From contig JABXKD010000005.1 of assembly GCA_013375475.1 (NCBI GenBank), positions 1 to 64,000 on the forward strand: a stretch of DNA of 64,000 nt, given 5' to 3'. The notes beneath the pieces are model-generated. The model was not told the origin of the DNA. It worked only from the letters and a program-made list of their open reading frames with translations, and ran no database searches. This DNA is from Promethearchaeota archaeon. Its GTDB lineage: Archaea > Asgardarchaeota > Lokiarchaeia > Sigyniarchaeales > SOKP01. The position numbers and the translations under genes were made by a program. Positions 10,015-13,238 of the stretch are shown piece after piece (within the stretch, counting starts at the first letter, position 1; the number at the start of each line of letters is the position of its first letter).

Positions 10015-10309
10015 ATCTCTTTTAATAATCATTTCTAACCTTTTTATAAGATGTTTTTTATCTATTTTTCCTTGTTAATAATATTTATCTTAGCAGATAT
10101 GATTGAAAAGTACCTAAAGTCTAATTTTAGTTTAAAAATATATTTAATTTGCTCTTGAAACCAAAAAAATAGAAATTTTCTATTGGAATATCACCTACAT
10201 ATTATCTAGTCTAATCTAAACCTCGGAAAATTCCTAATTCTTATATATTTCTAAAATATAATATTAAGTTAAGTAGAATTAATGATGTTGAGGACAATTT
10301 AAACTAAAA

Positions 10310-12304
10310 TTGAATTCCGACAAAAATCAAGATATTTTAGAGAAACAACTGAAGACACTAGGTCAAAAAATAAGGATCGATATTTTAAAGAAATTAAACC
10401 TTAGCAATTATCCTTTACCTTATTCATCGCTTCAGAAGGAAGTTTTAGGAAGTAATCCAAACGCTATTAATTTTTCATTTCACTTAAAAGCGTTAAAAAA
10501 TAGCGTTTTAATCGAATCCTCAGAGAATGGATACCTACTAACTACTATAGGGAAACAAATTTTGAAAAATATTGTGTCCATCGAGCAAATCCTCAACGAT
10601 AAGAATAAAACAATAATGATCAGGACTTCAAAGTATTCGAAAGAACCATTTGATACAAATAAAATTGAAAGTTATTTGATTAAAGAAGGCCAAGTTGAAA
10701 AATTTCTAGCAAAACAAATAGCTAAAGAAGTTGAAGAACGTCTATCTAAAACGAATATTGATTACTTAACAACACCATTAATGAGAGAATATATTAATGC
10801 TATTCTATTAGAAAATGGTCAAGAAGAAATTAGACATAAATTGACTAGATTGGGCACACCGCCCTTCGAAGTTTTTAAACACTTCGATAATAATTCAATT
10901 ACATCAGAAAAATTCCTCTCAAAATTAGGCTCAGATGTATCCGAGCAATTTTTACTTTTAAATCTTCTCCCTAAGAATTTAGCAGACTTGTATTTATCGG
11001 GGGAAGTGATTCTCCTAAATCTAAATTATTGGAGTTTAAGACCTTTAGGTTTGTATGTTGATTCCAATTCAATCCTGGAGCAAATATCCAAGAACAACCC
11101 CATCGACTTCAATAATCTTAATAGTCTAATAAACCAAATTAATCTAATAATAAGTTTTTTCGATAAAATAGCTTTCTTTAAACCATTTTTTTCTGAAGAT
11201 ATAATGTTGGGCAATTTTACTGATTCTTTCTTGTTTAATTTTGAATCTGAAAAGGATTCTTCCCATCTTTTAAAAATCATTGTTTCTCAAATTTTAAGAC
11301 TTAGTTATAGACATTATGATGAAAAATCTCATCTGTCATTAGAATTCTCTCTTTTAAATAAAGACAAAGAAGGATTGGTCGAAAGTTCGCAAGTTCAATT
11401 AATTAATACATTATTTAATAAGCTATTTAATCAAATTAGCCATAAAAATCAAAATACCGGACCTCTACTGTTACTCGATTACACTTCATTTCAGACTTCT
11501 AAAAAATCGTTTGATATTTTGGCAAATTATTTAAAACCTGGTTATTATCGTAATTTTATTTTCTTCGATAAAACTGAATCGAATTTACTCAACTCCTCTC
11601 TTATAAATGTACGTAGCCTAAGTGGTAGCAATTATAATAGAAACAGAATTATTTTGGATAAAATTTTAATTAATTTACTTGAGATTGCTGAAAATTCTTG
11701 CCAGAGTGATAATACTTTCTTCGATTATTTACAAGAGAGAATTGATTCTCTTTTTGAATTCTTTGAATATAAAAAAGAATTAATGGATCGAAGGTTTAAA
11801 ACCTCCAAACAATGGGAAAGAATAACCTCTGAATTTTTTGAAATTAAAAACTCTAATTGGATCGACGATTCTTTAAAATCTGTTAGTTTTATCGGTTTTA
11901 ATGAGGCGGTAAAAACACATTGTGGTATTGAAATTGATAGAATCGATAAAAGTGAGTCCTTTGCTTATGAAGTTTTAGAGTTTATGAGTAATATCATTAA
12001 AGAAAAGAATCAACAACAAGACGAGAATTATATATTAACTCAGCCCCATTACGATGGTTATCTACATGATATATACCATAATAATCAACCCAAATTAGGA
12101 AACAAATCTAATCCATATAGTACCTGTATGATTAGAGAGGATTCAAAGCTATCAATCAAGAGTAAAATTGACTTATATAAGAAATTTGAGAAATTTCTTG
12201 GTGGAGGAAGCGTTTTTACCCTAGGTGTGAATAAAGATTCTATTGAAGAACAAATAAATAGTTTAATAAATACAAAATTGAACGCATTTCAACTACATTT
12301 ATAA
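10310..12304 (+). CDS. HTH + ATP-cone + degenerate anaerobic ribonucleotide reductase (NrdD)-like protein
   Basis: N-terminal ArsR-like winged-helix region (~1-85), ATP-cone (IMIRTSKYSKEPFDTNKIESYLIKEG...), NrdD-like segments (SFIGFNEAVKTHCG; LGGGSVFTLGV), but no C-terminal glycyl-radical domain. TTG start. Confidence 0.65.
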   Translation: MNSDKNQDILEKQLKTLGQKIRIDILKKLNLSNYPLPYSSLQKEVLGSNPNAINFSFHLKALKNSVLIESSENGYLLTTIGKQILKNIVSIEQILNDKNKTIMIRTSKYSKEPFDTNKIESYLIKEGQVEKFLAKQIAKEVEERLSKTNIDYLTTPLMREYINAILLENGQEEIRHKLTRLGTPPFEVFKHFDNNSITSEKFLSKLGSDVSEQFLLLNLLPKNLADLYLSGEVILLNLNYWSLRPLGLYVDSNSILEQISKNNPIDFNNLNSLINQINLIISFFDKIAFFKPFFSEDIMLGNFTDSFLFNFESEKDSSHLLKIIVSQILRLSYRHYDEKSHLSLEFSLLNKDKEGLVESSQVQLINTLFNKLFNQISHKNQNTGPLLLLDYTSFQTSKKSFDILANYLKPGYYRNFIFFDKTESNLLNSSLINVRSLSGSNYNRNRIILDKILINLLEIAENSCQSDNTFFDYLQERIDSLFEFFEYKKELMDRRFKTSKQWERITSEFFEIKNSNWIDDSLKSVSFIGFNEAVKTHCGIEIDRIDKSESFAYEVLEFMSNIIKEKNQQQDENYILTQPHYDGYLHDIYHNNQPKLGNKSNPYSTCMIREDSKLSIKSKIDLYKKFEKFLGGGSVFTLGVNKDSIEEQINSLINTKLNAFQLHL

Positions 12305-12314
12305 CTAAAATCAT

Positions 12315-13238
12315 TTAATTTGATAATAATTCCGCCAAAATCGCCTTTCTCATAGGAATACCATAGTATGCTTGTTTAAAGTAAATAGATTTAGGAGAAT
12401 CATCAATTTCAGCTGAAATCTCTTTGATTCTTGGTAATGGGTGCATAATTTTAAAATTGTCCTTAGTCTCTGCCATATCCTTTTTAGTGAAGACATAGAA
12501 ATCTTTGACTCTGTCATATTCTTCAATATCGGCAAATCTTTCTTTCTGAATTCTAGTAACATAGAGAATGTCTAGAATATTAAGAATATCTCTAAATTTC
12601 TCGATTTCTTTGTATTTAACTTGGTTCTGTTGTAAGTAATCCTTATCCCTTTTTCTGAGCATCAAATCTTTAGGACTTATGAAGTAAATATTAGCTTCAT
12701 AGTTCGAAAGTAATATAGATAACGAATGAACAGTTCTCCCATATTTCAAATCCCCCATTATCCCAATATTCAATCCGTCTAATTTTTGGCCCTCTTGTGT
12801 TATAGTTAATAAATCTAATAAAGCTTGCGTTGGATGTTCTCCACTTCCAGATCCCGCATTTATTATTGGAATTTTTGCGAATTTTGCAGCTAATCTAGCT
12901 GCACCTTCTAAATTATGTCTAATAACAATGCCATCACTGTAATTTTCTACAGTGCGTATCGTATCTGCGATGCTCTCACCTTTCTTTGTTGAAGAAACAT
13001 CACCCGTATGAAAACCAATTACATTTCCTCCTAAACGATACATTGCTGACTCGAAACTTAAACGGGTTCTTGTAGATGGTTCAAAAAATAAAGTTGCTAA
13101 TATCTTCCCTTTTAAAACATCAGCTTTTTTATTATTATGAATCATTTCTTTGCCTTTTTGGAGAATATACTCTATATCTTCTCGCGAAAAATCTTTCGCA
13201 GTTATAATTCCTTCTTTAAATTTCTCTTTAAATGACAT
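12315..13238 (-). CDS. pyrB: aspartate carbamoyltransferase catalytic subunit
   Basis: FFEPSTRTRLSFESAM, GSGEHPTQALLDLLTI, HPLPRIKEI. Confidence 0.96.
   Translation of the reverse strand: MSFKEKFKEGIITAKDFSREDIEYILQKGKEMIHNNKKADVLKGKILATLFFEPSTRTRLSFESAMYRLGGNVIGFHTGDVSSTKKGESIADTIRTVENYSDGIVIRHNLEGAARLAAKFAKIPIINAGSGSGEHPTQALLDLLTITQEGQKLDGLNIGIMGDLKYGRTVHSLSILLSNYEANIYFISPKDLMLRKRDKDYLQQNQVKYKEIEKFRDILNILDILYVTRIQKERFADIEEYDRVKDFYVFTKKDMAETKDNFKIMHPLPRIKEISAEIDDSPKSIYFKQAYYGIPMRKAILAELLSN

Follow-up and report, generated by a model that had tools for sequence, protein, structure and literature searches.

How the expression of ribonucleotide reductase (RNR) genes is coupled to deoxynucleotide (dNTP) levels in archaea is, to our knowledge, largely open. 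The locus described here raises this question in a concrete form. Within the first 64,000 nucleotides of a Promethearchaeota contig (GCA_013375475.1, JABXKD010000005.1, forward strand; hereafter the window), one gene encodes a protein that begins with a winged helix-turn-helix (HTH) domain and an ATP-cone and continues as a class III RNR (NrdD). Is this protein an enzyme, a part of one, or a regulator? A prediction made from the letters of the window alone had proposed an inactive reductase, fused to DNA-binding and (d)ATP-sensing modules and functionally analogous to the regulator NrdR, which is rare in archaea (PMC9110341). The fusion is very probably a catalytically dead, regulator-like protein. 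The sequence comparisons reported below further make it probable that it is a (d)NTP-sensing, RNR-specific and autoregulated transcription factor derived from a dead class III RNR, NrdR-like without being NrdR. Genomes, contigs, loci, families and genera are given by handles (G, C, L, f and g, respectively) where they have to be told apart; f1 is the family of the window genome.

The predicted three-part architecture was recovered with Pfam, with every domain above its cut-off: DUF7347 (E 1.5e-9, 38.4 bits), the ATP-cone (PF03477, E 4.4e-6, 27.6 bits vs a cut-off of 25.8), and NRDD (PF13597, E 1.3e-13, 50.9 bits). The HTH had been labelled ArsR-like, fairly so: in relatives, the ArsR model HTH_5 is above its cut-off at the same place (35.2 bits in L051, 28.3 bits in L053), and hence the HTH reading is sound. 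In the window protein, Pfam detects the NrdD body in its C-terminal half only, while in relatives the N-terminal half is detected as well; long-form relatives reach 217–292 bits for NRDD, often over nearly the whole profile. The early NrdD motif is degenerate, as had been noticed, with YLSGEVILLNLNYWSLRPLGLYVDSNS in place of the canonical HLYGDIHVHMLRYFDLRPFCQEWDPRM. The C-terminal glycyl-radical segment is likewise missing, as the NRDD match stops at profile position 491 of 562, short of the glycyl-radical end. The gene sits between rps7 and a convergent pyrB, which ends 10 bp past the stop of the fusion gene, so that no radical segment follows immediately downstream. A direct sequence search of the PDB with the window protein gave no match. 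The structural check that had been suggested was carried out with an AlphaFold model from four input sequences, which was poor (mean pLDDT 45, pTM 0.39); its best Foldseek matches were class III RNRs at a TM of about 0.2. The coordinates of all features are given in Table 1.

Table 1. Features of the fusion gene and its surroundings (positions in the window)
Feature	Position	Strand	Remarks
ATATCACC-N3-ATATTATC element	10188..10206	+	At -122, starting some 52 bp ahead of the TATA box; no second exact match in the genome
Fusion-gene TATA box (putative), TTATATA	10241..10247	+	Inferred; position conserved in relatives
HTH-ATP-cone-pseudo-NrdD protein	10310..12304	+	664 aa, TTG start; full-length orthologues exist
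CCGACAAAAAT box over codons 3-6 of the fusion gene	10317..10327	+	No other exact CCGACAAAA in the 64-kb window; common with nrdD 5' regions
Winged HTH, DUF7347, residues 14-88	10349..10573	+	Pfam; ArsR-like in relatives
ATP-cone, residues 102-174, presumed (d)ATP sensor	10613..10831	+	Pfam
RPLG, residues 244-247	11039..11050	+	Alignment; first active-site Cys position changed to Gly; RPFC in canonical NrdD
NRDD match, residues 445-653, profile 275-491/562	11642..12268	+	Pfam; glycyl-radical end missing; finger-loop Cys missing just N-terminal of the match
pyrB, aspartate carbamoyltransferase	12315..13238	-	Convergent neighbour of the fusion gene; context

Class III RNRs need both active-site cysteines and the radical glycine. 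For comparison of the cysteines, the fusions were aligned with two canonical NrdDs, one from the window's own genome and one from G002. The cysteine of the RPFC motif, the first active-site cysteine (C79 of T4 NrdD), is gone in every aligned fusion, with RPLG in the window protein and RPLS, RPNN, and other residues elsewhere, and the finger loop with the thiyl cysteine is deleted in all of them. The window protein and the members of f1 additionally lack both the C-terminal Zn finger and the glycyl radical. Other Asgard families have fusion forms of about 710–780 aa, and several of these keep the Zn finger and the glycine, the latter in radical-like motifs (TRNIGHY, SRQVGPY, TRLTGPY), without the cysteines; by their sequences, such long forms look like stages of decay. 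Judged from the alignment, the fusion protein is dead as a reductase, and the claim of an inactive reductase is borne out by the missing active-site cysteines in every aligned member. A stand-alone glycyl-radical subunit would not restore catalysis because the thiyl cysteine is lost.

Conservation of the HTH fusion across Asgard archaea, another point raised with the original prediction, was found to be broad: HTH-ATP-cone-NrdD proteins are encoded in genomes of at least ten families. Searches with a profile of four orthologues recovered full-length fusions from the majority of genomes in the window's family (about 50), as well as longer fusions from several further orders and classes within the phylum; the named relatives are Lokiarchaeal MAGs. 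As the gene is full-length in about 50 genomes of the family, it is neither a chance open reading frame nor a broken gene. In a phylogenetic tree, 51 fusions and 36 canonical NrdDs were parted by one branch with an SH-aLRT of 100. The tree resulted from a quick search with the HTH columns included, and only this single split is relied on, not the inner order.

A separate NrdD of the active type, which the original prediction had asked for, is encoded in the window's own genome (G000:C211) as a complete, 1189-aa frame including an intein and ending in SRITGYY. The intein of this gene (L077 2688-6254) comprises about 474 aa and is inserted directly before the C79-equivalent cysteine (RPF / CQEWDPRM). 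No NrdD was found in seven other genomes (G102, G103, G143, G088, G089, G091, and G092), all of which carry a class II RTPR (TIGR02505) and all of which have kept the fusion. A preliminary reading of these seven as devoid of any RNR had been based on the large-subunit class I/II model PF02867 alone and was dropped upon the TIGR02505 matches. Retention of the fusion across an exchange of RNR class fits a regulator of RNR supply, not a subunit of NrdD. In f3, HTH-less NrdD genes at three loci (L131, L132, and L133 of G087, G086, and G093, respectively) end in KITDYY or KITNYY, i.e., the radical glycine is changed to Asp or Asn, and the RPxC motif was not found in these proteins; they possibly represent a second loss of NrdD catalysis.

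The sequence CCGACAAAA first stood out on inspection of the fusion-gene and nrdD 5' regions. In an unbiased k-mer test on 36 genomes with both genes, it was the 9-mer most often common to the two 5' regions within a genome (29/36 genomes from five genera), followed by the TATA box with 23 genomes; the maximum under the null, i.e., with the nrdD region reversed, was eight. Across 672 kb of family loci it occurred 83 times, namely 39 times in nrdD 5' regions, 43 times in fusion 5' regions, and once in the window; no further copy was present in about 635 kb of these loci. This corresponds to 43 of the 45 fusion genes and 39 of the 45 nrdD genes of the family; no P value is given for these counts because related genomes are not independent. 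The box is usually a single site, and coverage is not complete: the nrdD of the own genome has only a degenerate box (AACGACATAAAT, 9/11), some nrdD genes have none (e.g., L113, L135, and L140), and most fusions outside the window's order have no such box upstream.

At the fusion gene the box overlaps the first codons. For the Asp within the box, the codon is GAC in 38/38 cases vs 250/1227 (20%) in the rest of these genes. The residue in front of it may be S, A, P, or T, but its codon ends in C in 38/38 cases vs 503/3768 (13%) elsewhere. This synonymous-site bias shows selection on the nucleic acid. In L024 and L026, a stop breaks the stretch of codons 3-6, and the box persists, matching at 10 of 11 positions, 17 bp ahead of the following start. 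In fusion genes of genus g2, the box is shifted to -89 to -121 and inverted, and an inverted box also lies upstream of RTPR genes (exact in L107 and L108, shorter in L104). DNA is hence favoured over RNA as the recognised molecule, given these flips in orientation.

Upstream of the fusion gene there is a further element, ATATCACC-N3-ATATTATC, which was found at 12/16 or better in 39/46 family genomes at a fixed position relative to the TATA box and is absent from g2 and g4. Its role may be that of an activator site or of an extra autoregulatory site. As an operator shared with nrdD it was rejected, the nrdD 5' regions scoring like shuffled DNA. Other exact boxes of the own genome are not counted as targets, several being intragenic and the total amounting to seven vs three in the reversed control. 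In G000, G123, and G140, a box was observed 120–165 bp upstream of a gene for a Mrr-like protein of 122–126 aa with a weak Pfam match (L124, L166, and L177). In several genera, CCGACAAAA also occurs at the start of a ribbon-helix-helix (RHH) regulator gene (L162, L167, and L161 near 1501; G140:C71:97240), and these box-bearing RHH genes are mostly divergent from a gene for a protein of about 210–240 aa without a Pfam match.

Four other explanations of the fusion were weighed against these data. The fusion could be an active reductase with unusual chemistry, a pseudogene in decay, or an artefact of assembly, as might be argued from the glycine that the long forms keep in a radical-like motif; however, an active-site cysteine occurs in no member, the frame has stayed open across about 50 family genomes, and the own genome already has an NrdD, so that practically no weight is left for this explanation. 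The fusion could also be a pseudo-subunit that pairs with active NrdD for allosteric tuning, its HTH being only a dimer or nucleic-acid contact. The barrel region has been kept over long evolutionary time, and a dimer surface could be common to both proteins, but the winged HTH is conserved throughout, the tree separates the fusions deeply from NrdD, and the fusion is retained in genomes where NrdD was not found; we consider such a role very improbable. A regulator that acts locally on pyrB and on itself, i.e., on pyrimidine supply instead of on RNR genes, is suggested by the neighbourhood. The adjacency noted in the original prediction is real and conserved across Asgard families: pyrB is the immediate, convergent neighbour at nearly all f1 fusion loci, separated by no more than 80 bp, and lies near the fusion also in f2, f8, f10, f23, f3, and f9 (as immediate neighbour in f2, f10, and f23). 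In f3 g13 and f9, it precedes the fusion gene by 4 bp on the same strand. The ATATCACC-N3-ATATTATC element, specific to the fusion promoter, would also suit local control. On the other hand, pyrB in the window has no box, the mostly convergent arrangement places its promoter far off, and the shared box points to RNR genes, which makes local control of pyrB improbable. The neighbourhood ties the fusion gene to nucleotide supply and is in itself no evidence of regulation.

The most probable of the four is that a different regulator, e.g., the RHH protein, recognises the box, with the fusion being only one of its targets or regulating other genes. Consistent with this, G123, G125, G098, and G140 carry the box where the RHH gene starts. 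G123, a single-contig genome, has just four exact CCGACAAAAWT sites, at nrdD, at the fusion gene, at a divergent RHH gene pair, and at the Mrr-like gene. The family f26 points the same way: in G177 and G178, an exact box lies between nrdD and a divergent phosphoesterase gene (L188 2135, L189 2072), and no fusion gene was found in these two genomes. Against it, a search at 1e-5 detected RHH orthologues neither in the f2 and f3 genomes, whose boxes lie at fusion, nrdD, or RTPR genes, nor in some box-bearing f1 genomes (e.g., G138 and G126). The fusion gene, in contrast, occurs in all three of these families. Control by another regulator is therefore regarded as unlikely, although not negligible.

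With the fusion itself as the probable regulator of RNR genes, a mechanism can be sketched. A pseudo-NrdD, probably as a dimer, would bind the CCGACAAAA(A/T)T box through its winged HTH, and the ATP-cone, possibly together with the old specificity site of the barrel, would read the levels of ATP/dATP or of other dNTPs. Nucleotide reading would change the oligomer state, by analogy with NrdD and NrdR: P. copri NrdD passes from dimers to tetramers when dATP occupies its ATP-cone (PMC11226230), and NrdR loaded with dATP/ATP binds DNA as a tetramer (PMC9110341). In the simplest outcome, plentiful dNTPs would lead to repression of the RNR genes and of the fusion's own gene; repression is suggested by the location of the box, close to or just past the predicted transcription start. 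For the phylum as a whole, it appears somewhat likely that there is an Asgard-wide family of transcription factors in which a DNA-binding domain was joined to a reductase, the enzyme was then killed, and its own allostery serves as a dNTP sensor to control whichever reductase is in use, replacing NrdR. The fusion family is a concrete candidate for a regulator, together with its operator, in the archaea nearest to eukaryotes. If the proposal is true, an enzyme was converted whole into a sensor for the genes of its working counterpart, with the intermediates preserved as the long forms that carry the zinc finger and the glycine without the cysteines. No description of the fusion was found in a search of open papers.

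Compared with known systems, the fusion shares with NrdR the coupling of an ATP-cone sensor to a DNA-binding domain, and the proposed analogy to NrdR is supported, at the level of sequence, by a common operator-like box at its own gene, at nrdD, and at some RTPR genes, by its retention when the RNR class differs, and by the absence of NrdR from the family. NrdR (TIGR00244) gave no match in the own genome and is absent from f1; in the genome set, it was above the cut-off only in f17 (G056-G062), where the HTH-ATP-cone-NrdD fusion was not found. The two differ in build, NrdR having an N-terminal Zn-ribbon (two CxxC) and no reductase body, whereas the fusion has a winged HTH and a dead NrdD barrel. 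For NrdR, which has two boxes at RNR promoters, palindromic boxes and binding are known (PMC9110341); the box of the fusion differs from these. From NrdD, the fusion has its body by sequence descent (PF13597 above the cut-off) and the N-terminal ATP-cone, but it lacks both active-site cysteines and, in the window's family, the glycyl-radical domain, and it carries an HTH in front. It has the DNA-binding domain in common with the ArsR/DUF7347 winged-HTH regulators of archaea, while its sensor is an ATP-cone with a dead reductase instead of a metal site or a small ligand domain. The closest parallel in layout is an in-frame NrdR-NrdD fusion of f17 (L234 1093-3534, L235 1080-3506, L236 714-3125, and L237 1234-3729), in which a DNA-binding domain and an ATP-cone likewise precede NrdD in one frame. 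Here, the DNA-binding domain is the Zn-ribbon of NrdR (MKCPYCQSPNTRVVDKR) and not a winged HTH, and the NrdD part keeps its finger-loop cysteines (NLSMCCRLK). This frame ends short of the glycyl radical, which is encoded further downstream as a separate small piece, CPYCGSENVYGMSRVVGYFSIIENW (CPxC...SRVVGYFS), in a short frame of its own; by these motifs, the split NrdD is probably active. The split active enzyme that the original prediction had named as its counter-scenario exists in f17, but not for the window protein, which has no active-site cysteine. Taken together, the f17 and HTH fusions imply that a DNA-binding/ATP-cone module was joined to NrdD at least twice in the phylum: in one case the enzyme was retained, though split, and in the other it is dead.
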